Source: Gemmatimonas sp.
GTDB taxonomy: Bacteria > Gemmatimonadota > Gemmatimonadetes > Gemmatimonadales > Gemmatimonadaceae
Assembly (NCBI GenBank): GCA_011390805.1
Contig: JAABRT010000013.1
Location: 1-64,000, forward strand
Reading direction: 5' to 3'
DNA length: 64,000 bases
This document shows positions 2,983 through 17,923 of this stretch, piece after piece (position 1 is the first letter of the stretch; every line of letters starts with the position of its first letter). Position numbers and translations under genes: made by a program. The notes beneath the pieces were generated by a model. The model ran no database searches. It was not told the DNA's origin and saw only the letters and a list, made by a program, of their open reading frames with translations.

Positions 2983-3837
2983 TCAGGCAGCTTTCGCTGA
3001 CGAGTACATCTCAAGATCACGCGGCCGACAGCACACCCCCGACACATGACTGGGCGCACGCACCAGCGCTTCCGTCACACCAAGCGTGCTTTCCGTGCCA
3101 CCCAGGAACAGGCACCCACCGGGTTGCAGTATTTTCGCCATGCGATCGAGCACCGAGCGCTTGGTCTCGACATCAAAGTAAATCAGCACGTTGCGGCAGA
3201 AGATGATGTCAAACTGCCATGACACGGGAAATGGATCGAGCAGATTGATTTCCTGATACTTGACCCGGTCACGGATGTTCTGGTTGAGCTCAAAGCCCTG
3301 CGCGGTCTGTTTGAAGTGCTTCACCAGCAGCTGCACCGGCAAGCCGCGCTGAATCTCAAACTGGTTGTACACCGCAGCCTTCGCGCGTGCGAGCGCCGCC
3401 GCCGAAAAATCAGTGGCCAGGATTTCTACCCGCGTTCCGTTTAATCGTGGTTCCACCTTGTCCACGATCATCGCAATCGAATACGGTTCCTGCCCGGTGG
3501 ACGAGGCCGCGCACCAGATGCGCACCGGGCGTCCACCTGCACGCGCGCGGTCGGCAGCGGCCAACAGCAAATCATTCTCGAGCGCGAGAAACGGTTTGCT
3601 GTCGCGGAAGAACAGCGTCTCGTTGGTGGTCATCGCATCGCATACGTGCTTCACCAACTCCGGTGACGGCGCGCGGCGCAACGCCGTAAAGAGCGCGGCG
3701 AGATCGGCGTAACCGTACGTTGCGGCAATCGGGGGCAACCGGCTTTCCAGCAGGTACTCCTTGCCGGGGCCCAGGGTCAATCCGCTGCGCTTTTTGAGCA
3801 GCTCGCTGACAAACGTGTAATCCGGTTCGCTGATCAT
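2983..3837 (-). CDS. cheR: Chemotaxis protein methyltransferase CheR
   Basis: SAM-dependent methylation of glutamates on chemoreceptors, the adaptation step of chemotaxis. The 284-residue product has the CheR N-terminal helical domain and a methyltransferase domain with TGQEPYSIAM, a TDFSAAAL acidic strand, and FCRNVLIYF. The chosen ATG at 3837 overlaps the cheB stop as ATGA. The frame stays open further upstream, but that extension lies inside cheB. It is the last gene of the operon, ending at the terminator at 2929-2962. Confidence 0.95.
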   Translation of the reverse strand: MISEPDYTFVSELLKKRSGLTLGPGKEYLLESRLPPIAATYGYADLAALFTALRRAPSPELVKHVCDAMTTNETLFFRDSKPFLALENDLLLAAADRARAGGRPVRIWCAASSTGQEPYSIAMIVDKVEPRLNGTRVEILATDFSAAALARAKAAVYNQFEIQRGLPVQLLVKHFKQTAQGFELNQNIRDRVKYQEINLLDPFPVSWQFDIIFCRNVLIYFDVETKRSVLDRMAKILQPGGCLFLGGTESTLGVTEALVRAPSHVSGVCCRPRDLEMYSSAKAA

Positions 3838-4949
3838 GCTGCTTTTGCTCCGCACTGTTGCTGCACCGCGTTGGCGATGTCGCTGAGTGGAAGCACCTGG
3901 TGCGCGAGTCCGGCGTGCACAACGGCACCCGGCATGCCCCACACCACACTCGTCGCTTCATCCTGTGCGATGATGCGTCCGCCGCGACGATGAATCTCGC
4001 GGCAGCCTTCCCGACCATCTTCACCCATGCCGGTCAGTACCACGGCCAGCGTAGATGCACCATAAATGGCGGCGGCGCTTCGAAACATGGGATCGGCCGA
4101 CGGCCGGCAATAGTTTTCGGGATCGGATTGGCTGAGCTGCGCAATGGCTCGGCCTTCATGCGTATGGACCAGCATATGAAAACCACCGGGGGCGATGTAG
4201 GTGTGTCCGGGAAGCAACGCCTCACCGTCGCGCGCTTCGGCGCACGGACGTTTGGCGTCTCGCTCCAGGCGTTGCGCAAGCAACACTGTGAATACCGGAG
4301 GCATGTGCTGTGTAATGACAATCGGCAGCGGAAAGTCGACGGGCAGGCCACTCAGCACATCGGCCAGTGCGTTCGGTCCACCGGTGCTCGACGCAATCGC
4401 CAACAACCGGGGCGGCGCGTCGCTGCTTCGTGCAGCCAGAATCTCGGTGCGCATTGGTGGACGCGAGATGGGCAGCACGTCAACGTTGAGTGCTTTCGCC
4501 GTCGCCGACGAGGCTCCACGTTTACCGCGTGCCGCACGTCCGATTGCGCGTACCTTTGATGCGATTTCAATGGTGAGTGCAGCCAGTGCCGCCGTACCAC
4601 TCTTGGCTGCCGGCTTGGCAATAAAGTCCGATGCACCGAGCGCCATGGCCTGCATCGTGATTTCGGCGCCGCGCTGTGTGAGACTGCTGGCCATGATGAC
4701 GCGCGTGTCCGGATACTGCCGCAGAATGAGCGGCAATGCGGTGAGTCCGTCCATCTCCGGCATCTCGATATCCAGCATCACCACGTCAACGGCTGTATGA
4801 CGCAGTGCATCGAGTGCAATGCGACCATTCGGCGCCGTGGTGACCACATGCAAATCCGGCTGTTCATCAATGATACGGCCAAGTGCACCGCGAATCACTG
4901 CGCTGTCGTCAACAATCAGCACGCGGATCGCGTCTTCAGGTTTGCTCAC
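3834..4949 (-). CDS. cheB: Chemotaxis response regulator / protein-glutamate methylesterase CheB
   Basis: Removes methyl groups from (and deamidates) chemoreceptors when phosphorylated by CheA. The 371-residue protein has an N-terminal receiver domain (DD at 14-15, phospho-acceptor D60 in MLDIEMP, KP near 115) and a C-terminal methylesterase domain with the nucleophile in ASSTGGP, the catalytic histidine in TQHMPP, and GMGEDG around the catalytic aspartate. Start and stop both overlap neighbours by ATGA, which points to translational coupling with cheY and cheR. Confidence 0.96.
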   Translation of the reverse strand: MSKPEDAIRVLIVDDSAVIRGALGRIIDEQPDLHVVTTAPNGRIALDALRHTAVDVVMLDIEMPEMDGLTALPLILRQYPDTRVIMASSLTQRGAEITMQAMALGASDFIAKPAAKSGTAALAALTIEIASKVRAIGRAARGKRGASSATAKALNVDVLPISRPPMRTEILAARSSDAPPRLLAIASSTGGPNALADVLSGLPVDFPLPIVITQHMPPVFTVLLAQRLERDAKRPCAEARDGEALLPGHTYIAPGGFHMLVHTHEGRAIAQLSQSDPENYCRPSADPMFRSAAAIYGASTLAVVLTGMGEDGREGCREIHRRGGRIIAQDEATSVVWGMPGAVVHAGLAHQVLPLSDIANAVQQQCGAKAA

Positions 4950-5314
4950 CGCACGCCACAGGCTTCAAGCTTCGATCCGATGATCTCGGCGTCGAATGGT
5001 TTCATGATGTATTCACTGGCGCCAAGCGAGAGCGCCGTGGTGATTTTTTCAAACGCGGTGTGCGTGGTGCACATGATCACCGGCGGTGTGGAGCTGCGCT
5101 GCTGGGCGCGCAAGGCGCCCAGAAACGCGAGTCCGTCCATCACCGGCATATCGACATCGCACAGGATCGCGTCCGGCGCCGGAGCGCTGTCCAGCGCCGT
5201 CAGCCCCTGCGCACCATCACCGGCTTCGGTGACGGCGAATCCCATACCCTCAAGGATTCGCCGGATTGCCTTGCGAATGGTGAGCGAATCGTCGATCACA
5301 AGAATGCGTTTCAT
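4946..5314 (-). CDS. cheY: Chemotaxis response regulator CheY-like
   Basis: Single-domain receiver of 122 residues. The acidic pair D8-D9, phospho-acceptor D53 (CDVDMP), a conserved TTH segment and KPF near the end are all present. It is likely phosphorylated by the CheA of this operon and acts on the motility machinery, although no flagellar or pilus genes lie in the window. It starts 11 nt after the mcp stop and overlaps cheB. Confidence 0.93.
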   Translation of the reverse strand: MKRILVIDDSLTIRKAIRRILEGMGFAVTEAGDGAQGLTALDSAPAPDAILCDVDMPVMDGLAFLGALRAQQRSSTPPVIMCTTHTAFEKITTALSLGASEYIMKPFDAEIIGSKLEACGVR

Positions 5315-5325
5315 TTGATGCTCGC

Positions 5326-7359
5326 TCAGAGCTGACGCAAACGCGCCAGGAAGTCACTCACCGAGTGATTCAACCGCTCCGACTCAACCGACAGCGATCC
5401 GGCAGCGGTCTTGATGCTTTCCGCGGTATGCGCACCTTCCACCGCGACCTGCGTGACCATGCTGATGCTGGAGCTTACCTCGGCGGTGCCGCGCGCGGCC
5501 TCGCCAACGTTTCTCGAGATTTCACCGGTCGCTGCATTCTGTTCTTCGACAGCGCTGGCGATCGTGGTGGAGATCTCGTTGATCTTGTTGATCACGTTGG
5601 TGATATCGCGAATCGCCGTGACCGCCGACGACGTGTCGTTCTGCACACCGGCAATCTTGTTGCCGATTTCTTCCGTAGCGCGCGCCGTCTGACGTGCCAA
5701 CTCCTTGACTTCGTTGGCCACAACTGCGAAGCCCTTGCCGGCTTCTCCCGCACGTGCTGCTTCGATCGTGGCATTGAGCGCGAGCAGGTTCGTCTGCTGC
5801 GCGATGCTCGTGATCACCTTCACCACCTGACCGATTTCCTGGCTTGATGCACCGAGACGCGCCATGGTATCGCTGGTGTCGGCGGCCTGACGGACGGCGC
5901 TCTGCGAAATCGACGACGCTTCCTGCACCCGACCGGCAATCTCACGGATGCTCGCCGTGAGCTCTTCAGCCGAGCTGGCCACCGTTTGCACGTTGCGGGT
6001 GGCCTGTTCGGACGCGGCGGCAACCGCCTGCGCCTGACGGGTTGTTTCTTCCGACGACGCGGCCATGCCCTGCGCACTGGCTTCGAGTTCTGTTGACGAC
6101 GCGCTCACCACGCTGGCAATGGCCATCACGTTTGATTCAAACTCGTCGGCCATCTTCACATTTTCCGTGATGATGGACCAGTTCACCATTGGGCCTACGT
6201 ACTTGCCGCTCTCGTCATAAATGGCCACGGCCGTGAGATCGAGCGTTTCCGGGCCCACACGAATCTTGACGTTGTGCGGCAAGTGGCGATCGGTGGCCAG
6301 CATGCGGCGCTGATGCTCCGGGTCCTTGTGGAAGATGTCGATCTTGGAGCCCACCACATCGGCGGCCTTTACCGGAAGATGCTGCTCAATGCGCTTGAGT
6401 GTGGCCAGCGATGCCGGGTTGATGTATGTGATGGTGAAATCGAGGTTGCACAGCATCAGGTTGATCTGGGCCGACGCAACCATCGGCTTGAACAACGCCG
6501 TTTCGCGGCGCATGCGCACAATCTCCGAGATGTCCTGCGCGTACTTCACAACCTGCAGCACATTGCCGTCGCGATCACGGATGGGATTGTACGTGGCCTG
6601 CAGCCACACCGGCTTTCCGCCTTTGCCCACACGCTCGAACTCGCCCGACTGGAACTCACCGCGGTTGAGCTTGGCCCAGAACTCACGGTAGGCGTCGCTC
6701 GCCGCGTATGACGGCTCGCAGAACATGGAGTGATGCTTGCCCACCACTTCGTCGGCGCTGTATCCCGTGGTGCGCAGGAAGTTCTGGTTGGCGTCGAGAA
6801 TGATGCCGTTGAGATCAAAAGAGATCACAGCGTTGGACGCACCGATGGCCGCTACCTGACCGGCGTGGTCATCGCTGCGTGTCACCTGTGCCGTAATGTC
6901 CGATGCGTACTTGACCACCTTCGTCACGCGTCCTTCTTCGTCGCGAATCGGATTGTACGACGCCTGGAGCCACAGCGTGCGTCCATGTTTGTCCACGCGG
7001 CGGAACTCGCCCGCCTCCAACTCTCCACGCTTCAGGCGCGCCCAGAAATCGCGATACTCGGCGCTTTCACGCATCGCCCGGTCGCAGAAAATGGAGTGGT
7101 GCTTACCCTGGATTTCAGCGAGTTCGTAGCCCACCGCTTCGAGGAAGTTCTCGTTGGCCGTGAGCACTGTACCATCCACATCAAACTCAATCACGGCCAT
7201 GGCGCGATGAATCGCGTTCACGTGACTGTCGAGTTCCGCCATGCGCTGTTTGAGCGCGTGGTCCGGTGGCGTGGCGGTTGACTGCCGGCGCGCCGTGGGC
7301 TGCGTGGCGCTGCTGGAGACACTGCGGGTGCGGGGACGAGCGGGGGCTTTTGCGGGCAT
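5326..7359 (-). CDS. Soluble methyl-accepting chemotaxis protein with three PAS domains
   Basis: Chemoreceptor of 677 residues with no membrane segment. After a basic Pro/Ala/Ser-rich tail come two near-duplicate PAS domains (each with an F-D-x-(D/N)-G-x-(V/I) core and a GKHHS motif, about 40-160 and 165-280), a divergent third PAS (about 290-405), and a full signalling domain with the conserved hairpin tip ([19 protein letters not shown]). There is no HAMP domain. Such cytoplasmic PAS receptors (BdlA/Aer-like) usually sense redox, oxygen or energy state. The start ATG at 7359 is chosen because upstream codons overlap cheW. It lies between cheW and cheY, so it is the cognate receptor of this operon. 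Confidence 0.92.
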   Translation of the reverse strand: MPAKAPARPRTRSVSSSATQPTARRQSTATPPDHALKQRMAELDSHVNAIHRAMAVIEFDVDGTVLTANENFLEAVGYELAEIQGKHHSIFCDRAMRESAEYRDFWARLKRGELEAGEFRRVDKHGRTLWLQASYNPIRDEEGRVTKVVKYASDITAQVTRSDDHAGQVAAIGASNAVISFDLNGIILDANQNFLRTTGYSADEVVGKHHSMFCEPSYAASDAYREFWAKLNRGEFQSGEFERVGKGGKPVWLQATYNPIRDRDGNVLQVVKYAQDISEIVRMRRETALFKPMVASAQINLMLCNLDFTITYINPASLATLKRIEQHLPVKAADVVGSKIDIFHKDPEHQRRMLATDRHLPHNVKIRVGPETLDLTAVAIYDESGKYVGPMVNWSIITENVKMADEFESNVMAIASVVSASSTELEASAQGMAASSEETTRQAQAVAAASEQATRNVQTVASSAEELTASIREIAGRVQEASSISQSAVRQAADTSDTMARLGASSQEIGQVVKVITSIAQQTNLLALNATIEAARAGEAGKGFAVVANEVKELARQTARATEEIGNKIAGVQNDTSSAVTAIRDITNVINKINEISTTIASAVEEQNAATGEISRNVGEAARGTAEVSSSISMVTQVAVEGAHTAESIKTAAGSLSVESERLNHSVSDFLARLRQL

Positions 7360-7414
7360 GGGAGTGATCCGGGACGCGGTTGGTGGAGTACGGGGAGTCG
7401 GCGCGCAATGCGCG

Positions 7415-7891
7415 TCAGGAAGTGGGCTGGTCGAGCCGGAGAAACGCCTGCACATCGAGGATGAGCAGCAAGTCGTGCTCTCGGCGCACGATGCCGTGGC
7501 AGGCGCTGCGCCATCGCGCGTCCAGCGTCGCCGGTGTGTCCTCAATGACTTCATCATCAAACGCGAGGACATCGCCTACATCGTCCACCATGAAGGCGAA
7601 CAGTTCGCCCTCCTGACGCACGACAACATTCATGAAGGTGGCGTCGGCCTCGCGTGGCTTGAGGCCGAGCGTTGTGCGCAGATCAATCGAGGTGACGATC
7701 TGTCCACGCAGGTTGAGGAAGCCGGCCACCGCCGATGGCGCGAGCGGTACACGCGCGATGTGCTGCGCCACCAGTACTTCCTGCACCGAGCCGACCGGTA
7801 TGCCGATCCACTGCTCGCCAAGTGCAAAGGTGACGTATTCGTGGATGGCGGATTGCGCCGCTGTGCGACGGGAACGGAGCGTGGTAGTCAT
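7415..7891 (-). CDS. cheW: Chemotaxis coupling protein CheW
   Basis: Scaffold that links chemoreceptors to CheA. The 158-residue product is a single CheW domain with the family's LNLRGQIVTSIDLRTTLGL strand-loop-strand signature and a FMVDDVGDVL segment. It overlaps the cheA stop as ATGA and is followed, after 55 nt, by the receptor gene. Confidence 0.95.
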   Translation of the reverse strand: MTTTLRSRRTAAQSAIHEYVTFALGEQWIGIPVGSVQEVLVAQHIARVPLAPSAVAGFLNLRGQIVTSIDLRTTLGLKPREADATFMNVVVRQEGELFAFMVDDVGDVLAFDDEVIEDTPATLDARWRSACHGIVRREHDLLLILDVQAFLRLDQPTS

Positions 7892-10515
7892 GCGGCCGCC
7901 AACTCACGGGTGGTAAGACGACGTACGGTTGAGACAACCGTTTCACGATCGTACTTGGGGAGATAGGCATCGAAGCCCGCTGCAATGCCCCGGGCGTAGT
8001 CGTCGCTGCCGTCACGTGATGTGAGCGCCACCAGCATCAGTTCCTTGCCGAGTGGCTTACGCCGAATCGCTTCGGCCAGCGCGAAGCCGTCCATGCCGTC
8101 CATCTCGATGTCGCTGATCACCAGGTCAAACGTCTCGCCCGCATCGAGTCGGGCCAGTGCACTTTCGGCGCCGCTTGCCGTGGTGATGTGGAAGCCGGCC
8201 GCACGCAGCGCGGGAGCCAGCAGTCCGAGGAAGAAACGTGAATCGTCGATCAGCAGCACGTGTGGCGCGGCGGAATCCGTGCCGCTGTGACCCAGGCTGC
8301 GGTGCCAGTCAGCGTAGGCCAGCCGCAGGAAATAATCGGTATCAATGACTTCGGTGGCTTTGCCATTGATCACGCAGACACCCAGTACACCCGCGCGGGT
8401 GGCTGAACGCTCAATGGAAAGCTTTTCTTCCACGATATCGCGGATGGCGTTTACGGCCACGCCCATGGTGCGTTCGCCATCGTTGAACATGATGACCGGG
8501 CGGGGGTCGAGCGCACGGATATCAATGGACGGGTTGGCCGGTATGACAGGAATCAACGCGCCACGATACTGCACGAGGAACTGTCCGTCCGCCTCTTCGA
8601 AGACTGACGGCGCAAACTCTTCCAGTCGCGCAACGAGTGACAACGGCACCGCCTGCATGGCCGGGAAGCCGGCGTCAAACAGCAGAATGCTTTCGGTTGC
8701 TTCCTCGCTGGCGCCAAGTGATGTCTTGGCCGCCGCCAGCGCGCTCTCGTCGCGACTGGAACGCTCGTTGATGGCGGCCATGCTGGCCACGCCCGACGGA
8801 TCAAGGATCATGATCACCCGACCGTCGCCCGTAATGGTGCATCCCGCGTAGGCTGACAGGTGTTTGACCAGTCGGCCAACCGGCTTCACCACAATTTCAG
8901 CCGTGTCAAATACTTCGTCGACCATGAGGCCAAAGCGCTGATGCCCAACCTGGCAGACAACAATGCTCTGCGTTTCGACATCGGCCCGTGGTTCGAGCTC
9001 GAGCAGACCATGCAGGTCAACCAACGGCAGCAGCACATCACGCAAGCGATAGAAGCGTGCGCCGTTCACACGCTCCACGAGTTGCCGCTTTTCTTCGGTA
9101 ACGCGGACCAGTTCCACAATGCCGATCTGCGGTACGGCAAACGATTCGCCGGCCGACTCCACGATGAGCGCCGAAATGATGGCGAGCGTGAGCGGAATGC
9201 GAATGCGTACCGTGGCACCGCGGCCGAACTCCGACTGCAGCTCCACCGATCCACCAATCGCTTCAATGTTGCTGCGCACCACGTCCATGCCCACACCGCG
9301 GCCGGACACATTGGTAATCTGTTCGGCCGTTGAAAAGCCCGGCTCAAAAATGAATCGCAGCACCTGCGTATCGCTGAGCGTCTCGGCCAGATCGGCGCGC
9401 ACCAGACCGCGCTCGATTGCCTTGCGACGTACACGCGAGACATCAATGCCGCGTCCGTCGTCGGCGATTTCAATGATGACGTGACCGCCTTCGTGCCTGG
9501 CGGCCAGGCGCACCGTGCCCTGTTCGGGTTTACCGGCGGCGCGTCGGGCCGGCGCGTCTTCGATGCCGTGGTCGGCCGAGTTGCGCACCATGTGCGTGAG
9601 CGGATCCTGAATGGCCTGCAGGATCTGTCGATCGAGTTCGGTATCGGCACCTTCCATCACCAGTTCGATCTGCTTGCCTGCGGCACTGCTCAAGTCGCGC
9701 ACCAGGCGAGGCAGCTTGGTCCAGGCATTGCCGATCGGCTGCATGCGTGTGCGCAGCACCGCGTCGAGCAGATCGGTGGTCACGCGATTGAGATGCTGTA
9801 CCGGATGTGTGAAGACAGACTGCTCATCACCGGCCGCGAGCTGTGCCAGCTGATTGCGGCTGAGGGCCAGCTCGCCAACAAGATTCATGAGCTCATCGAG
9901 CAGCCCGACGCTCACACGCAGTGTACTGTCGGCGAGTGGAGCGCGATTTTCGACAACCGGCGCATCGGATTCTGCACGGGTTGCCGTTGGCTCACCGGTT
10001 GCTGCCACGTCGGGCGCAAACATGGTTGCTCCGCCTGATGATGGAGTGGGAAAGAGTTCGTCGGTGTCTTGTGCCGGCGCGTTGGGCAAACGCGGCTCCG
10101 GCATGTCTTCCGGCTCTGTTGTTGCGGCATGGGTGGGATCGTGCGACATCCATGCATCGAGCTGTGCAATGAGGCGCAGATCGTCACCATCGGGTTCGGC
10201 TTCAGTGCTCTCTAGTGCTTCGAGAATGTTTTTGATCTGATCAACAGCAGCGAGCACGTCATTAATGAGTGCGTCTGAGACGGAAAGCTTTCCGCTGCGC
10301 AGTGCGTCGAGCAGGTTTTCGGCGGAGTGGGCGAGCGTTTCAAGTCGCGTCAGGCCCAGAAAGCCACAGGTGCCTTTGATGGTATGAATGGTACGGAACA
10401 CGCTGTTAAGCGGTGTCGCGTCGCCGGGTTGCCGCTCCAACGCAATCAAGTCGTTGTCGAGACGAGCCAGGTTCTCTGAACTTTCGGTGAGGAAATCGCG
10501 TAGCAGGTCGTCCAT
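7888..10515 (-). CDS. cheA: Hybrid chemotaxis histidine kinase CheA with C-terminal receiver
   Basis: Kinase that phosphorylates CheY and CheB. Domains of the 875-residue protein in order: HPt (about 1-105, phospho-histidine H44 in IHTIKGTCGF); a low-complexity linker in place of a recognisable CheY-binding P2 domain; dimerisation helices (about 200-260); HATPase with N box HMVRNSADHGIE, G1 DDGRGID and G2 GRGVGMD; a CheW-like regulatory domain; a second, more divergent CheW-like segment (about 610-735); and a receiver (about 750-870) with DD and phospho-acceptor in ISDIEMDGMDG. First gene of the operon. A sigma-28-like promoter lies about 60 nt upstream. Confidence 0.95.
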   Translation of the reverse strand: MDDLLRDFLTESSENLARLDNDLIALERQPGDATPLNSVFRTIHTIKGTCGFLGLTRLETLAHSAENLLDALRSGKLSVSDALINDVLAAVDQIKNILEALESTEAEPDGDDLRLIAQLDAWMSHDPTHAATTEPEDMPEPRLPNAPAQDTDELFPTPSSGGATMFAPDVAATGEPTATRAESDAPVVENRAPLADSTLRVSVGLLDELMNLVGELALSRNQLAQLAAGDEQSVFTHPVQHLNRVTTDLLDAVLRTRMQPIGNAWTKLPRLVRDLSSAAGKQIELVMEGADTELDRQILQAIQDPLTHMVRNSADHGIEDAPARRAAGKPEQGTVRLAARHEGGHVIIEIADDGRGIDVSRVRRKAIERGLVRADLAETLSDTQVLRFIFEPGFSTAEQITNVSGRGVGMDVVRSNIEAIGGSVELQSEFGRGATVRIRIPLTLAIISALIVESAGESFAVPQIGIVELVRVTEEKRQLVERVNGARFYRLRDVLLPLVDLHGLLELEPRADVETQSIVVCQVGHQRFGLMVDEVFDTAEIVVKPVGRLVKHLSAYAGCTITGDGRVIMILDPSGVASMAAINERSSRDESALAAAKTSLGASEEATESILLFDAGFPAMQAVPLSLVARLEEFAPSVFEEADGQFLVQYRGALIPVIPANPSIDIRALDPRPVIMFNDGERTMGVAVNAIRDIVEEKLSIERSATRAGVLGVCVINGKATEVIDTDYFLRLAYADWHRSLGHSGTDSAAPHVLLIDDSRFFLGLLAPALRAAGFHITTASGAESALARLDAGETFDLVISDIEMDGMDGFALAEAIRRKPLGKELMLVALTSRDGSDDYARGIAAGFDAYLPKYDRETVVSTVRRLTTRELAAA

Positions 10516-10575
10516 GGGTCCGTCTCAGGCGAGCGGTTGTCCGGAACGCTGCGTCGCGTTGCCGATGTGATGGAG

Positions 10576-10602
10576 GTATCGACCGGTTTTCGGCAGACAT
10601 TA
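10576..10602 (-). promoter_or_regulatory. Possible sigma-28 (FliA) promoter of the che operon
   Basis: On the minus strand TAATGTCT is followed after exactly 11 nt by GTCGATAC. The FliA consensus is TAAAGTTT-N11-GCCGATAA, so each box matches 6 of 8 positions. Transcription would begin near 10569 and leave a leader of about 54 nt before the cheA ATG. Chance occurrence cannot be excluded, and no fliA or flagellar gene is in the window. Confidence 0.4.
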
Positions 10603-10677
10603 GCCAGCGAACAAATGCTTCTTGCGTCCGGCAGCGCCGTTTCAGTTGCAGGCATGTGATGCCGACACCCTGTGATT

Positions 10678-11118
10678 ATGCATACCATTCGCCTCATTTA
10701 CGCCAGCGTCGCACGCCCTGAGCACACCGGGTATGCCGACCTTACCGCACTGCTTCACCGTGCGGCGCAGTTCAATGAAGAGCAGGCATTGACCGGGCTG
10801 TTGGTGTACGGCAACGGGATGTTTCTGCAGGTGCTGGAAGGCGAACGCAGCGCCGTCAACCATCTCTACAATCGCATTGCTGCAGACAAGCGGCACGAGC
10901 GCTGCACGTTGCTGTCGGCGCACGCGATTTCCGAGCGGAAGTTTTCGCATTGGGCAATGAAACTGGTTGGCATTGACGACATGCCGACGGCGCCACGTCG
11001 TGCGATTCTGCTGCGCTTCTCCGGCCAGTCTCACTTTGATCCGTTTCTCATGACGGACCAGCAGGCGTTCGGCTTTCTGTGCGCCATGGGCGACGTCGAG
11101 CGGCAAGCCGCAGCCTGA
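10678..11118 (+). CDS. Short BLUF-domain blue-light photoreceptor
   Basis: A 146-residue protein that is essentially one BLUF domain, which binds FAD and senses blue light. All key positions of the family are present at SyPixD-like spacing: Y8 (LIYAS), N33, Q51 (GMFLQVLEG) and W92/M94 (FSHWAMK). The C-terminal 45 residues form the short cap expected of PixD-like stand-alone BLUF proteins, which act by protein-protein contact. The ATG at 10678 is used because it places the photoactive Tyr at residue 8; a GTG two codons upstream is possible. It is divergent from the chemotaxis operon with 162 nt between them. Confidence 0.93.
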   Translation: MHTIRLIYASVARPEHTGYADLTALLHRAAQFNEEQALTGLLVYGNGMFLQVLEGERSAVNHLYNRIAADKRHERCTLLSAHAISERKFSHWAMKLVGIDDMPTAPRRAILLRFSGQSHFDPFLMTDQQAFGFLCAMGDVERQAAA

Positions 11119-11166
11119 ACACCGGTTGGGCGCTGAACGCTTGCCTCACGGTGTAGATTCGCTCGT

Positions 11167-12000
11167 ATGGCTCCTGTTGTCCGCCCCACGGCATTCCTGG
11201 CTCAATCGTCCCAGCCGCTCCCCGAGAGTTTCACGGGTCGGCTTGAGTACAGCTTCACGCTGATCGCCGAGTTCGTGCCGGCGCTCTTTGGCGCGCTGGT
11301 GATTCTGTTTGTGGGCTATCTCGTGGCCAAGCTCATCGAGAAGGGAGCCCATCGCCTGCTGCGCCGCGTGCATTTCAATGAAATGATGGATCGCGGTGGT
11401 GTGCTCGAGGCGGTGGCGCGCTCCGGAACCCCGATCAATCCGGCCCGTGTTGTGGCGTCGTTCCTGTTCTGGGCTGTGATGTTCTCGGTGCTGCTGATTG
11501 CCGCCAACGCCATCGGCCTGGAGTCGCTGGCGGGCGTATTCAGCGAACTGCTCTCCTACATCCCCGGCATCATTGCGGCGATCGTGATTGTGATCGTGGG
11601 CATTGTGCTGGGTGGTTTTGTGGAGGGGCTGATCCGCGCGGCCGCCGGTGCGGTGCACGGTGCGGCTGCATTGGCCCGGGTAGGCCGCGGCAGTGTGATC
11701 GTGCTGGCAGTGTTCATGGCACTGCAGGAGATTGGCGTAGCCACGAACATCGTGACGATCGCCTTCGGGATTCTGTTTGGGGCGGTGGCGCTGGCGCTCG
11801 GTCTGGCCTTCGGGTTGGGCAACCGGGAACTGGCCGCTGAAATCACCCGCGCCTGGTACGAACGCTATCAGGCGGAGCGCGCGGCGATTGAGCGGGAGGC
11901 TGCCGCCGACGAGGCCGAAGACTTTCCGGAGACGCAGGAGTTCGTCAGTGTGGCGACGGAAGAGCCAACGGATCCTGACAACTCCGGCAGCCGTCCCTGA
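11167..12000 (+). CDS. Mechanosensitive-channel-like membrane protein with conserved TM-helix repeat
   Basis: Inner-membrane protein of 277 residues with four or five hydrophobic segments (about 23-48, 95-118, 127-150, 175-200 and 200-215). The TM-helix repeat is of the CmpX/YnaI-neighbour type (ALFGALVILFVGYLVAK repeated later as IIAAIVIVIVGIVLGG). The C-terminus is acidic and cytosolic. The family is linked to small mechanosensitive channels, but the C-terminal beta domain of MscS is absent, so channel activity is inferred only. There is no Shine-Dalgarno sequence; TAGATT lies 7 nt before the ATG. Confidence 0.75.
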   Translation: MAPVVRPTAFLAQSSQPLPESFTGRLEYSFTLIAEFVPALFGALVILFVGYLVAKLIEKGAHRLLRRVHFNEMMDRGGVLEAVARSGTPINPARVVASFLFWAVMFSVLLIAANAIGLESLAGVFSELLSYIPGIIAAIVIVIVGIVLGGFVEGLIRAAAGAVHGAAALARVGRGSVIVLAVFMALQEIGVATNIVTIAFGILFGAVALALGLAFGLGNRELAAEITRAWYERYQAERAAIEREAAADEAEDFPETQEFVSVATEEPTDPDNSGSRP

Positions 12001-12022
12001 AGTTGTTGTGTAGCAACAACTT
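12000..12022 (+). terminator. Stem-loop at the 3' end of the TM-helix gene
   Basis: A perfect 9-bp stem (AAGTTGTTG with CAACAACTT) and 5-nt loop begin at the last base of the stop codon. No T tract follows, so it may be a weak or factor-assisted terminator ahead of gyrA. Confidence 0.45.
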
Positions 12023-12149
12023 GCGAGATCGCTTCCGAGTTGATTTGTCGGTGCGTGCCGACTAGATTTCAAGGGTTGCCCCGACGATCGCGCAAATCGT
12101 GCGCGGTTCGTGAGTGCGGGCCTATTTCCCTGCCTTCCCACGCTCCTCC

Positions 12150-14696
12150 ATGACCGCTCCCAACGCTCGCGAGCGCATTCTGCCGCGAATGATTCACGAG
12201 GAAATCAAGGAATCGTTCATCAACTATTCCATGAGCGTTATTGTCTCTCGCGCACTGCCCGACGTGCGCGACGGACTCAAGCCCGTGCATCGTCGCGTGC
12301 TGTACGCCATGAACGAGCTCGGCCTGGTGCCGGGACGCCCCTTCAAGAAGTGCGCGACGGTTGTGGGCGATGTGCTCGGCAAGTACCACCCGCACGGTGA
12401 CAGCTCGGTGTACGACGCGCTCGTGCGTATGGCGCAGGAGTTCTCGCTGCGCTACCTGCTGGTCGATCCGCAGGGCAACTTCGGCTCCATCGACGGTGAC
12501 TCGGCGGCTGCGTATCGATACACCGAGGCCCGTCTCACGCGCCTGGCCGTGAACATGCTCACGGACATCGACAAGAACACGGTCAACTTCGCGTCGAACT
12601 TTGACGATCGCCTTGAGGAGCCCACGGTACTGCCGGCCGGCGCGCCCAATCTGCTCATCAATGGTTCGTCGGGCATTGCCGTGGGCATGGCCACCAACAT
12701 TCCGCCGCACAACCTGCGCGAAGTGGTGGACGCCTGCATTGCGCTCATCGACAACCCGGAGCTTGAGGCAGAGGCGCTGCGTGGCATTGTAAAGGGCCCT
12801 GATTTTCCGACGGGCGGTTACATCTACGGACGCGCCGGAATTGCCGACTATCAGACCACCGGTCGTGGTCGTATTGTCATGCGCGCGCGGGCTGTCATTG
12901 AAGAGCGCGAATCGTCGGGCAAGTCGCAGATTGTGGTCACCGAAGTACCGTATCAGGTGAACAAGGCCAAGCTGGTAAAGGATATTGCCGACCTTGTGCG
13001 CGACGGCAAGCTCACCGGCATCTCGGCACTGCGCGACGAGTCAGACCGCGAAGGCATTCGCGTGGTTGTGGAACTCAAGCGTGATGCGATCCCGCGTGTG
13101 GTGCTCAATCAGTTGTACAAGCACACCGCCATGCAGAGCACCTTTGGCGTGATCATGCTGGCACTCGTGCCAGACGAAACAGGTCGCCTGATTCCGCGCG
13201 TGATGCCGCTCAAAACGGTGATTGAGCACTATCTCAAGCACCGCCACGAAGTCATTGTACGCCGTACCCAGTTTGATCTCGATAAGGCGGTTGATCGCGA
13301 GCATATCCTCGAAGGGCTCAAGATCGCCGTCGACAATATCGATGAAGTCATCGCGCTTATTCGCGCCGCAGAAGATACGCCCACTGCCAGCACGCAGCTG
13401 CAAACGCGTTTCTCGCTCAGCGAGCGTCAGGCCGAAGCCATTCTCAATCTGCGTCTGGCCAAGCTCACCGGTTTGGAGCGCGAGAAGCTGGAAGAAGAGC
13501 TGGCCGAAGTGCGCGCGCTCATTGGCGAGCTGCGCAGCATTCTCGAGTCGCGCGAACGCCGCATGACCATCATGAAGGGTGAGTTGATGGAAGTGCGTGA
13601 AACCTTCGGCGACGATCGTCGCACCGAAATCGTGAGTGACGACGGCGAGTTCTCGGTTGAAGACCTCATTGCCGAAGAAGAGATGATGGTCACCATCTCG
13701 CGTCAGGGTTACATCAAGCGCACGGCCGTTTCGCTGTTCAACAAGCAGGGACGTGGTGGTCGTGGCAAGATCGGTGCGGATTTGAAAGAAGGTGACTTCA
13801 TGGAACAGATGTATGTCACCTCCACACATCATTACATCCTCATCTTTACCGACGACGGGCGTTGCTTCTGGCTCAAGGTGCATGAGTTGCCGCAGGCCGG
13901 TCGCACCACGCGCGGCAAGCCCATCGTCAACCTCATTAACGTCACACCCGATACGCGCATTCGTGCAATCGTACCGGTGCGTGAGTTCAGTGACGACGAA
14001 TATCTGCTCTTCGGCACACGCAACGGCACCGTCAAGAAAACCGCGCTGTCGCAGTATTCCAACGTGCGTGTGAACGGCATCAAGGCCATCAAGATTGAAG
14101 ACGGTGATGAGCTCATTGATGTGCAGGTCACATCAGGTACGAGTGACATCATTCTTGGCACGCGTCAGGGCATGTCCATTCGCTTCCACGAGCAGGATGT
14201 GCGCGAAATGGGACGCGATACCACCGGCGTACGCGGTATCTCACTGGCCGATGGTGATGCGGTGGTTGGCATGGTCGTAATCCGTCGCAACGAAGCCACG
14301 CTGCTCGTGTGCACGGAGCTTGGACTCGGCAAATGCACCTCGCTTGACGATTACCGCATTCAGAAGCGCGGTGGCAAGGGCATTCTCACGCTCAAGCGCA
14401 CCGATCGCACCGGACATGTGGTGGCGCTCATGGAAGTCTCGGCTGAAGAAGAGATCATGCTCATTACGCGCGGTGGTATTTCCATCCGCTCGTCAATGGC
14501 CAACATGCGCGTTGTGGGACGTAATACGCAGGGCGTGAAGATGGTCGCGCTTGACGAAGGCGATCTGGTCACAGCGGTTGCCCGTGTGGTGCCGGATGAT
14601 GACAAGGAAGATGGTACGGATGCCGGCGAGGGTGACAACGGGGAAGGACCAGGCGGCGCCCCCGCGCCGGATGGCGAACTTGACCTGATCAGCTAA
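12150..14696 (+). CDS. gyrA: DNA gyrase subunit A
   Basis: Breaks and rejoins DNA during ATP-driven negative supercoiling with GyrB. The 848-residue protein has the winged-helix/tower core with catalytic tyrosine Y124 ([10 protein letters not shown]) and a C-terminal six-bladed domain with a GyrA box (QGRGGRGK). The quinolone-resistance region reads [10 protein letters not shown]: the E. coli S83 and D87 equivalents (S85, D89) are present, so no common resistance substitution is seen there, while A84 is a serine. The C-terminus ends in an acidic Gly/Pro tail. The start at 12150 gives the usual family N-terminus ([14 protein letters not shown]); an in-frame upstream ATG at 12114 is less likely. 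Confidence 0.97.
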
Positions 14697-14713
14697 CGGG
14701 AGCGCGTTCTCCC

Positions 14714-15712
14714 GTGTCTCTCCCAGCCTCACTTGTCAGTTTGTCAGATCTGCAGGCCGCCGCGCAGCGATTGCGCGGTGTGGCCGTGCAGACGCCGTTG
14801 CTTCCGGTGGATGCGCTCAGCGAAAAGTTTCCGCACGGTGTGTGGGTAAAAGCCGAGTGTTTGCAGCGTGTAGGTGCGTTCAAGGTGCGCGGCGCGTACA
14901 ACTACATGGCTGGAATGGACCCGTCGGTTCGTGCCCGCGGCGTGATTGCGCCTTCAAGTGGCAATCACGCGCAAGCCGTGGCCTACGCGGCACGTCATTT
15001 TGGTGTGCCGTGTACAGTTGTCATGCCGACGACAGTGTCGCCGGCCAAAAAAGTTGGTGCCGAGCGACTTGGTGCCACGGTGGAGCTGGTGGGCACCACT
15101 ACGATTGCGCGCATTGCGCGGGCTGAGGAAATCGCGCGTGAGACCGGTGCCGTGGTAGTGCCTCCATTTGATGATGACACCATCATTGCGGGGCAGGGCA
15201 CGGTCGGTCTGGAAATCATCGACGCGCTTCCCGATGTGGCCACAGTTGTGGTGCCCGTCGGTGGCGGCGGTTTATCGAGCGGTGTTGCGGTGGCCATTAA
15301 ACATCTGCGGCCCAACGTGCGGGTAGTGTGCGTGGAGCCCGCCGGTGCTCCCAAGTTGTCCCGCGCCATGGCAAACCACGGGCCGGTTACGCTCGATCAG
15401 ACATCATCCATTGCCGATGGTTTGCTGGGCGTGCGACTGGGTGATCGCAACTGGGATCATCTCTCGGTGCTGGTAGACGATGTGGTGAGCGTGGAAGACG
15501 GTCCCATTCGCTGTACCATGCGTTTTTTGCTCGATCGTCTGAAGCTTGTGACTGAGCCCAGCGGCGCGATCACACTCGCGGCTGTAATGGAAGGCAAGGT
15601 GCTGTCTGACGGTCCGATTGTTGCCGTGCTCAGTGGCGGCAATATCGAATGGGATGGACTAATGGCTCAGGTGTCAGACGATGCCATGGCGGCCGAGTCG
15701 GTGACCGCCTGA
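14714..15712 (+). CDS. PLP-dependent threonine/serine dehydratase (ammonia-lyase)
   Basis: Deaminates threonine or serine to the 2-oxo acid with PLP. The 332-residue protein shows the PLP lysine in GAFKVRGAYN, the phosphate/substrate loop SSGNHAQA, and the Gly-rich PLP phosphate loop VGGGGLSSG. It has only the catalytic domain and lacks the C-terminal ACT-like regulatory domain of biosynthetic IlvA, so it resembles catabolic or serine-racemase-like members. The GTG start is 17 nt after gyrA, and the stop overlaps the next gene as TGATG. Confidence 0.88.
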   Translation: MSLPASLVSLSDLQAAAQRLRGVAVQTPLLPVDALSEKFPHGVWVKAECLQRVGAFKVRGAYNYMAGMDPSVRARGVIAPSSGNHAQAVAYAARHFGVPCTVVMPTTVSPAKKVGAERLGATVELVGTTTIARIARAEEIARETGAVVVPPFDDDTIIAGQGTVGLEIIDALPDVATVVVPVGGGGLSSGVAVAIKHLRPNVRVVCVEPAGAPKLSRAMANHGPVTLDQTSSIADGLLGVRLGDRNWDHLSVLVDDVVSVEDGPIRCTMRFLLDRLKLVTEPSGAITLAAVMEGKVLSDGPIVAVLSGGNIEWDGLMAQVSDDAMAAESVTA

Positions 15713-17190
15713 TGGCGGGGTCGGCGCGCATTCTTGTGGCCGATGACGATCCGGCGGTGCTGGAGTCCATCGGGTGGTTGCTCAAGGAAAACGGGTACGA
15801 TGTAGTGCGCGCAATCGACGGGCGTTCGTGTCTTGATGCGATCGGCGACCGCATGCCCGACTTGTTGCTGCTCGACATTCTGCTTCCCGACACCGAAGGC
15901 TTTCAGCTGCTTGAGCGCATCAAGGCTGATGAACGCTGGCGCGATTTGCCGGTGTTGATGCTGTCATCGTTGCCACCTGAAGATGCCTCGGTGCGTGCGC
16001 TGGGACTTGGCGCGGTGGACTTTGTGCGCAAGCCGTTCCGTCCCAAGGAGCTGCTGGCGCGTGTGCAGGCACATCTGCGCCATGGTGCGGTGTTCCGTGC
16101 AACACGCGCCGCGTTGCAGCGCACGCAAGACGAACTGCACCGCGCGCAGGAAGATGCGGAGAGCCGACGCAAGCTGGTGGACATTCTGCATGAGGTCACC
16201 GGCGATCTGTCGGTGAGCGAGTTGTATCAGCTGCTGGTTGGTCGCGCCGCGCGTGCGCTTGGCGTGTCACATTGTTCTGTTATTCTGGCGAAAGCGGGCA
16301 CGCGTACGGCAACGGTGGTGGCAGCGGTCGAGAATCCGCAAATCACCAACCTGGAAGTCACGCTCGATCGCTATCCCGAACTCGAAGCAGCCTTGGAAAC
16401 CGGACAGCCCGTGCTCGTGGAAGACATCGCCACGCACCCGCTGTACGATGGCGTGCGACAGGTGTGGGGGCTGGAAGGCATCGAAGTCAACATCCGGTCG
16501 GTGATTGCACTGCCGTTTACCGTCGATCGCGGTGCCTATGGTGTGTTTCTCGTGCGCCGCACGCTGGACCAGGAACCACTGGGTCCGGCCGATCTGGAGT
16601 TTGCCGAAGCGGTGATCACCGCGGCGGTTGCGGTGATTCAGCGTGCGCGAATGGTGGAGCACACCATGGCCGACAACGCGCGCCTGGAGCTGCTGGCACA
16701 AACCGATCCACTCACGCAGCTGTTGAACCGCCGAGCGCTGGCGGATACGATCAGCGCCGAGATGGAGCGTGCGCTGCGCTATGACGCATCGCTCGCGCTA
16801 TTGATGATCGATCTTGATCACTTCAAGCGGGTAAACGACACGTATGGTCACCTCATCGGTGACGATGTGCTGCGGGACGTGGCACAACTGCTGCGGGATG
16901 AGGTGCGCGAGCAGGATGTTGTCGCGCGCTACGGTGGTGAAGAGTTTCTGGTCATGCTTTCCGATATCGACGACGCGGGCGCCGAGGCGTTTGCCGAGCG
17001 CATTCGTGCGTCGATTGCGGCGCATACGTTTTCGTCGCGTCCGCGTGATGAGGGGATCTCGATCACCACCAGTATCGGCGTGGCCAGCTTTCCGGCCGCG
17101 CGCATTGAAACGGTCGAAGACCTGTTCGCGCAGGCCGACGCGGCCCTGTACCGGGCCAAGGCTGACGGTCGGGATCGTGTACGACGGTAG
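15712..17190 (+). CDS. Response regulator with GAF and GGDEF domains (diguanylate cyclase)
   Basis: Predicted to make cyclic di-GMP when its receiver is phosphorylated. The 492-residue protein has a receiver (DDD at 11-13, phospho-acceptor D55, KPF), a short coiled coil (about 125-160), a GAF domain (about 165-310) and a GGDEF domain (about 330-490) with an intact YGGEEF active site. REQD five residues before it forms an RxxD inhibitory site, which suggests product feedback. Its ATG overlaps the dehydratase stop; the functional reason for that coupling is not evident. No cognate kinase lies next to it. Confidence 0.93.
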   Translation: MAGSARILVADDDPAVLESIGWLLKENGYDVVRAIDGRSCLDAIGDRMPDLLLLDILLPDTEGFQLLERIKADERWRDLPVLMLSSLPPEDASVRALGLGAVDFVRKPFRPKELLARVQAHLRHGAVFRATRAALQRTQDELHRAQEDAESRRKLVDILHEVTGDLSVSELYQLLVGRAARALGVSHCSVILAKAGTRTATVVAAVENPQITNLEVTLDRYPELEAALETGQPVLVEDIATHPLYDGVRQVWGLEGIEVNIRSVIALPFTVDRGAYGVFLVRRTLDQEPLGPADLEFAEAVITAAVAVIQRARMVEHTMADNARLELLAQTDPLTQLLNRRALADTISAEMERALRYDASLALLMIDLDHFKRVNDTYGHLIGDDVLRDVAQLLRDEVREQDVVARYGGEEFLVMLSDIDDAGAEAFAERIRASIAAHTFSSRPRDEGISITTSIGVASFPAARIETVEDLFAQADAALYRAKADGRDRVRR

Positions 17191-17209
17191 CCGGCTCAGG
17201 GTAGCCGGC
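17190..17209 (+). terminator. Possible terminator hairpin after the GGDEF gene
   Basis: GCCGGCT and AGCCGGC form a 7-bp stem around a 6-nt loop and begin at the last base of the stop codon. No T tract follows. Confidence 0.35.
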
Positions 17210-17287
17210 GCTTAGCAGGGTTTTGCTGCTCGGCCGTCACCTCCGGGTGGTGGCAACCTTCCTTCACACCGATCAGGACGTTTGCAC

Positions 17288-17923
17288 ATGGCGATTTACC
17301 AGACTCTGCTGCGACGCAACAAAGAATGGGCCCAAGAGGAGCTTGAGAAGGATCCAGACTTCTTTACGCGGCTCGAAAACGTTCAGAAGCCTGAAGTGCT
17401 GTGGATCGGTTGCAGCGACAGCCGCGTGGCGGCGAACGTGGTGACCGGTACGCTTCCCGGCGAAATGTTTGTGCATCGCAACATTGCCAACATGGTCGTG
17501 AATACCGATTTGAACATGCTCTCGGTGTTGGAATACGCCGTGGCCGTGCTCAAGGTCAATCACGTGATTGTGTGCGGGCACTACGGCTGCGGCGGCGTGG
17601 CTGCGGCGATGACCAACAAATCGTACGGTCTTATCAACAAGTGGCTGCGCAACATCAAGGATGTGTACCGCTTGCACAAAGACGAGGTCGATGCCCTGCC
17701 CACCGAAGCCGAGCGAGTTGATCGCATGGTGGAGTTGAACGTGATTGAGCAGGTGTACGACCTTGCCAAGACCACGGTCGTGCAGCGCGCGTGGAAAGAC
17801 CGCCAGGGCCCGCATCTGCATGGTTGGGTGTACCGTCTGCACGACGGCATCATCCATCCCATCATAGAACGCGAGCCGGGCTCGAAGGTCGAAGACATCT
17901 ACCGGTTCGATTTCGACGACTGA
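17288..17923 (+). CDS. can: Beta-class carbonic anhydrase
   Basis: Zinc enzyme that interconverts CO2 and bicarbonate in the cytosol. The 211-residue protein has all ligands and the catalytic dyad: C42, D44 and R46 in CSDSR, H98 and C101 in GHYGC. The length and the C-terminal HGWVYRLHDG segment match the plant-type/Can clade. AGGA about 8 nt upstream supports the ATG at 17288. A monocistronic gene between a hairpin and a surface lipoprotein. Confidence 0.95.
   Translation: MAIYQTLLRRNKEWAQEELEKDPDFFTRLENVQKPEVLWIGCSDSRVAANVVTGTLPGEMFVHRNIANMVVNTDLNMLSVLEYAVAVLKVNHVIVCGHYGCGGVAAAMTNKSYGLINKWLRNIKDVYRLHKDEVDALPTEAERVDRMVELNVIEQVYDLAKTTVVQRAWKDRQGPHLHGWVYRLHDGIIHPIIEREPGSKVEDIYRFDFDD

Follow-up and report, generated by a model that had tools for sequence, protein, structure and literature searches.

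What does a stand-alone photoreceptor do beside a chemotaxis operon? The question is raised by the window (a stretch of 64,000 nucleotides from a Gemmatimonas sp. contig), in which a short BLUF gene and cheA start 162 nt apart and are read in opposite directions, as the first-pass annotation had reported (10516-11118 corresponds to the 162-nt gap plus the BLUF gene). The divergent arrangement, found again in related phototrophs and with sigma-28-like promoters on both genes, suggests that light tunes where the cells swim.

The BLUF gene and the chemotaxis operon

The genes of the unit were assigned as follows.

10678..11118, + strand: gene for a stand-alone short BLUF photoreceptor of the PixD type (PF04940; 146 aa; ATG start)
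7888..10515, - strand: cheA, with Hpt, H-kinase_dim, HATPase_c, CheW and C-terminal REC domains (Pfam)
7415..7891, - strand: cheW (PF01584, 1.6e-31)
5326..7359, - strand: gene for a soluble triple-PAS MCP (Pfam, PDB matches, hydropathy)
4946..5314, - strand: cheY, phospho-acceptor Asp53 (NCBIfam best match PRK10610 CheY, 1.3e-21, under the model cut-off)
3834..4949, - strand: cheB (NCBIfam NF001965, 3.8e-124, above the cut-off)
2983..3837, - strand: cheR (NCBIfam CheR model, 3.3e-39, under the model cut-off)

The product of 10678-11118 was assigned to the BLUF family by PF04940 (E 2e-28, 98.7 bits against a Pfam cut-off of 25). The flavin-site residues listed previously (Y8, N33, Q51 and W92) are all present, M94 in addition, and the protein would be expected to undergo flavin photochemistry. 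Its open reading frame offers an alternative GTG at 10672, but the ATG at 10678 agrees with the start that is shared by all eight carriers of the BLUF-cheA pair. In a PDB search, TePixD (1x0p, Tll0078) and SyPixD (2hfn, Slr1694) were aligned with it over the full length. Its AlphaFold model (pLDDT 92) matched PixD in Foldseek with TM scores (query) of 0.85-0.92 over ~140 columns, and the C-terminal helices of the model, at 105-115 and 127-145, both superpose on PixD. Given the full-length match and a TM score of ~0.9 that includes these helices, the model identifies the protein as a PixD-type short BLUF protein. No effector, SCHIC, DNA-binding or other second domain was found in it, and no second BLUF gene was found in the window genome. 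Purifying selection on the gene is evident in the best-sampled of the three genera that carry the pair (dN/dS 0.04-0.14 among G181, G194, G198 and G204) and less clear elsewhere, where values of 0.39 and 0.51 were obtained at high divergence.

The operon runs from 10515 down to 2983 in the order cheA-cheW-mcp-cheY-cheB-cheR. Its earlier description as complete holds for these six genes and not for CheZ, CheC, CheX and CheD, none of which was seen in it. Orthologues of cheA in the phototroph clade described below and its near outgroups are 60-70% identical. The C-terminal REC domain of CheA (7888-8300, - strand) occurs in the window genome (G000) and in G004, and most orthologues from the other genera stop before it.

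The receptor of the operon

The MCP lacks a transmembrane stretch (hydropathy maximum 1.44), and no HAMP domain was detected in it by the Pfam scan. PDB matches show PAS1 to be similar to the PAS domains of two flavin-binding proteins, MmoS and Aer; PAS2 is in turn a near duplicate of PAS1. The best PDB matches of PAS3 are Aer2-type PAS domains (6ceq, 4hi4 and 3vol), and Aer2 is also the best NCBIfam match of the whole protein, at a score far under the cut-off of that model. His344 (in an FHK motif) and Trp394 of PAS3 align with H234 and W283 of Aer2, numbered by counting along chain 4hi4; W283 is the ligand-site tryptophan. H234 is the heme ligand of Aer2 (PMC13401364). Taken together, these features give the receptor the look of an oxygen/redox sensor, and its PAS3 residues suggest that it may bind heme and oxygen. 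A related che module in a non-phototroph (G268, locus L106) encodes a globin-PAS-MCP receptor (5962-8010, PF00042), and its globin domain also points to oxygen.

The host genome and its other che clusters

The window belongs to a 3.96-Mb assembly that is 88% complete, and genes outside the window were called with a simple codon-bias caller. Two Photo_RC proteins (pufL/pufM type), flagellin and FliA are encoded, the last scoring above its curated cut-off. Reaction-centre genes and overall gene content point to Gemmatimonadota; phototrophs of this kind are concentrated in Gemmatimonadaceae (PMC12817894, PMC10581226). At least two further che clusters are present, on contigs 110 and 136. The former lies a few kb from flagellin, at a flagellar locus, and includes CheD, CheX and a CheZ-like protein; the latter includes CheC and a PATAN/DUF4388 protein. 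Since other che clusters exist in the genome, one of them at the flagellar locus, the BLUF-linked array is an additional array.

Sigma-28-like sites in the divergent gap

Flagellin genes in 15 genomes share a T(C/A)AAG-N14/15-nnCGAnA element ~90 nt upstream, in the form expected for sigma-28. A scoring matrix was built from these flagellin promoters only, with BLUF and cheA outside the training set and BLUF copies at other loci as the negative control. Two candidate sites were obtained in the gap.

10577..10602, - strand: TAATGTCTGCCGAAAACCGGTCGATA, sigma-28-like promoter facing the che operon, 61 nt upstream of cheA (15.9-16.0 bits, shuffle p 0.002)
10641..10667, + strand: sigma-28 (FliA)-like promoter of the BLUF gene, TTCAGTTGCAGGCATGTGATGCCGACA, with the end of the -10 element 10 nt before the ATG (9.1 bits, shuffle p 0.042; weak)

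The cheA-side site is the top scorer on both strands of the whole 64-kb window, and when the 200 nt upstream of each of the 49 genes in the window were scored, just three genes had a site above 8 bits, cheA and BLUF among them. Seven pair genomes have a cheA-side site 57-67 nt upstream of the ATG, the eighth (G007) having a borderline site at 42 nt, and G193, which has no BLUF gene at this locus, carries one at 58 nt. On the BLUF side, only 9-10 nt separate the end of the -10 element from the ATG in all pair genomes except G215, where the site is absent; transcription from such a position would yield an mRNA with almost no leader. The score in the window is low for this set (G004, 17.7 bits; G181, 17.6; G194 and G198, 17.1; G204, 13.8; window, 9.1; G007, 8.7). 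No strong site was found at seven BLUF genes of the relocated locus described below (best 6.2 bits). FliA (TIGR02479) was above the cut-off in all nine genomes tested. Flagellin-type sites before both cheA and BLUF suggest that the BLUF gene and the BLUF-linked array probably belong to the flagellar regulon.

Conservation of the BLUF-cheA pair

The survey covered 288 genomes of the order, in which a BLUF domain was found in 32 and a CheA close to that of the window in 31. Loss of the BLUF-che adjacency in relatives had been named in advance as evidence against a functional link; the divergent pair was found in eight genomes of three genera and in three genomic contexts (G000 and G004; G007 and G215; G181, G194, G198 and G204), all eight encoding pufLM-type reaction centres. 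The order cheA-cheW-mcp-cheY-cheB-cheR is identical wherever the contig is long enough. Its neighbours are gyrA and an mscS-like gene for the first genus, one very long ORF for the second and an M20 peptidase gene for the third. As it is intact between three unrelated flanks, the pair has outlived changes of its neighbourhood, and the BLUF-che linkage is more than chance.

In the CheA tree, the eight pair genomes form one clade with G193 and G216 (support 100/98), all ten with reaction-centre genes. G193 carries the che operon in the third (M20 peptidase) context with no BLUF gene between the neighbouring gene and cheA. In G216, the che cluster is shortened, lies close to flagellar basal-body genes and likewise lacks BLUF. 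The array can therefore occur in the absence of BLUF. At the G216 locus (L102, 1-1811), cheA is cut off and leads directly into the end of cheB and then into cheR, which is either a real deletion or an assembly fault. The nearest CheA outgroups (G263, G265, G266, G268, G178, G179 and G033) have no reaction-centre genes, and in the flanking sequence retrieved their cheA genes have no BLUF neighbour. BLUF domains occur in 24 of the 45 genomes with reaction-centre genes as against 8 of the 243 without (Fisher p 3e-16, the counts not being independent events). BLUF-che linkage and phototrophy probably go back to a single ancestral event, and one ancestral gain followed by two losses explains the che-linked BLUF set. 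In the BLUF tree, sequences cluster according to genus, and one branch (86/88) separates che-linked from relocated copies. A contig scan with the window BLUF returned only relatives of 38-45% identity, from Burkholderiales, with no similar che cluster adjoining, and no che gene was found within the 1.5-kb flanks fetched around BLUF genes of another family of the class.

The pair genome G215 (locus L111) is exceptional in both sensors: its BLUF protein (12040-12504) carries a natural Q51E exchange, and its receptor (6683-8740) has Phe in place of the PAS3 histidine that is present in all other BLUF-linked modules checked. The joint loss of key residues would fit a shared function of the two proteins, in a single case. 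Q51E, the lost PAS3 histidine and the missing BLUF-side promoter of G215 count against a light-input role of the BLUF protein. Among the pair carriers, G181 is a complete single-contig genome.

BLUF genes at other loci

A second, conserved home of BLUF genes was found in one genus, with methylmalonyl-CoA mutase on one side and a methyltransferase on the other (L112, L114, L115, L116, L118, L119 and L138), with two tandem copies in L115 (G190). In the single-contig genome G180, a different short BLUF gene (L139, 8097-8531) lies in line downstream of another che operon (10941-17731), in the order cheA-W-mcp-Y-B-R-CheX, GAF-PAS-HD_5 protein, BLUF, histidine kinase; this is an independent BLUF-che association. 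BLUF genes also directly follow GGDEF-type genes, overlapping or abutting them, in L141 (G180, 6814-8647) and L144 (G216, 7851-9762), and the GGDEF-EAL gene of L141 (Pfam) has a strong sigma-28-like site upstream (17 bits). In L004 of the sister species G004, BLUF is fused to a B12-binding/AppA_SCHIC-like domain, and ORFs of similar length occur in L070 and L140; AppA-like BLUF proteins are separate genes in phototrophic relatives. The window itself contains a REC-GAF-GGDEF diguanylate cyclase gene (15712-17190), 4.6 kb downstream of BLUF and outside the conserved unit.

Proposed function and its alternatives

We lean, with moderate confidence, towards a reading in which the BLUF protein, co-expressed through FliA, feeds blue-light information into an oxygen/redox-taxis array of Gemmatimonadota that are both flagellated and phototrophic. 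In sequence terms, this reading is built on the photoactive residues, the PixD fold, the divergent linkage, the sigma-28-like promoters and the oxygen-sensor-like residues of the receptor. It is further favoured by the all-phototroph CheA clade, whose next relatives are non-phototrophs, by the FliA, flagellin and reaction-centre genes of the genome, by purifying selection on BLUF, by the globin-bearing receptor of G268 and by the Spongiibacter precedent discussed below. Against it stand the weak BLUF-side site of the window, the two clade members without BLUF at the locus, the exceptional G215, the probable single origin of linkage and phototrophy, and the 88% completeness of the assembly. Light input would have been added to a pre-existing oxygen/redox-taxis chemosensory array. 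BLUF and the che operon would both be transcribed from sigma-28-type promoters in the gap between them, and so the light sensor would be produced together with the flagella and the BLUF-linked array. Blue light would then change the conformation of a BLUF dimer or oligomer, which would touch a component of the array (the PAS region of the receptor, CheW or CheA) and shift CheA activity, so that the output of CheY-P would change and swimming be biased relative to light and oxygen. That BLUF touches the array, in which direction the cells respond and that the flagellar motor is the output are inferences. More tentatively, and on balance with some doubt, the stand-alone BLUF protein could be a separate light-input subunit of a cytoplasmic CheA array that reads oxygen via a heme PAS receptor. 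If this is true, a single array would take a joint decision on light and oxygen in a phototroph, and a direct route from BLUF to CheA would exist without PixE.

Transcriptional control remains the main rival to array input, and is in our judgement unlikely. The BLUF protein would change transcription of the che operon or of flagellar genes, via a regulator, as has been proposed for Spongiibacter, or a contact of the BlsA-Fur kind, and would not act on the array. Precedent comes from Spongiibacter nanhainus, in which the rise of che and stator gene expression in blue light requires BLUF (PMC8805636), and from the short BLUF protein BlsA, which signals via Fur (PMC5955987). The window BLUF, however, has no DNA-binding domain, no regulator gene is adjacent, and both promoters look like plain sigma-28 sites.

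The BLUF gene might also stand beside the che operon only through common use of sigma-28 and act elsewhere in motility, for example on c-di-GMP or a flagellar brake, which we regard as rather improbable. Related copies at the methylmalonyl-CoA mutase/methyltransferase locus, which is itself conserved, the GGDEF/EAL-type neighbours of other BLUF genes of the family and the REC-GAF-GGDEF gene of the window agree with such a role, but it is exactly the BLUF-cheA pair that is kept in three genomic contexts, and the GGDEF gene lies outside the unit that is conserved.

That the adjacency is an accident, or an inherited arrangement without functional meaning, is very unlikely. The pair is confined to one clade and possibly to one event, and BLUF is missing in 2 of the 10 members; against this stand its survival through changes of flank, the sigma-28-like site at a fixed position before BLUF in several independent lineages and the lack of a strong site at the relocated copies. 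Least probable is PixD-like binding and release of a PixE-like PATAN-REC response regulator, which the closeness to PixD in fold and full-length sequence would favour, since a PATAN-REC protein was sought in the 88%-complete genome and not found, and the two DUF4388/PATAN proteins encoded there have no REC domain and do not lie near BLUF.

Significance and comparison with known systems

The BLUF-che unit is a compact, conserved candidate for the integration of light and oxygen in these anoxygenic phototrophs. It is also a test case for finding partners, as few short BLUF proteins have a known effector. BLUF genes beside che genes are already known (Spongiibacter). To judge from the literature searches, three features are new: a conserved divergent unit in phototrophs of the group, sigma-28-like promoters towards both genes, and the combination with a receptor of the Aer2-like kind. 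Neither phototaxis nor BLUF signalling in phototrophic Gemmatimonadota or in Gemmatimonas was the subject of any paper that these searches returned, and a Gemmatimonas paper that mentions BLUF does so purely by way of analogy.

AppA (BLUF plus SCHIC) likewise places BLUF in phototrophs, but the window BLUF has no second domain; AppA-style control of photosynthesis genes was rejected for it, given the lack of SCHIC or any other second domain. Photoactive yellow protein, which occurs joined to MCPs or in association with them, also senses blue light and has been proposed to signal into a chemotaxis array (PMC12826048); it belongs to another photoreceptor family and is fused, whereas the window BLUF is a separate protein. 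Aer2 (McpB; Pseudomonas and Vibrio relatives) is matched by the Aer2-like PAS3 with its equivalents of H234 and W283; unlike Aer2, the window MCP has two extra Aer/MmoS-like PAS domains and no HAMP domain was found in it, and its score is far below the Aer2 model cut-off.

PixD acts on type IV pili via the PATAN-CheY protein PixE (PMC5812497). The comparison with PixD made in the first-pass annotation stands for the BLUF protein itself, in sequence and fold, and is not supported for a PixE-like partner. Like PixD (Slr1694, Tll0078), the window BLUF is stand-alone, of equal length and fold, encoded by a phototroph and presumably tied to movement; unlike PixD, it adjoins a CheA array with flagellar-type promoters, and a PixE-like protein was not found.

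The closest counterpart in arrangement is Spongiibacter nanhainus CSC3.9, a gammaproteobacterium with a stand-alone BLUF beside a full che and stator cluster, in which deletion of BLUF abolishes the effect of blue light on motility and che expression (PMC8805636). There the che cluster lies immediately downstream of BLUF, whereas the window pair is divergent. Unlike that of Spongiibacter, the linkage described here is kept across three genera, in phototrophs, and the operon includes the gene of a PAS receptor of the oxygen/redox type.
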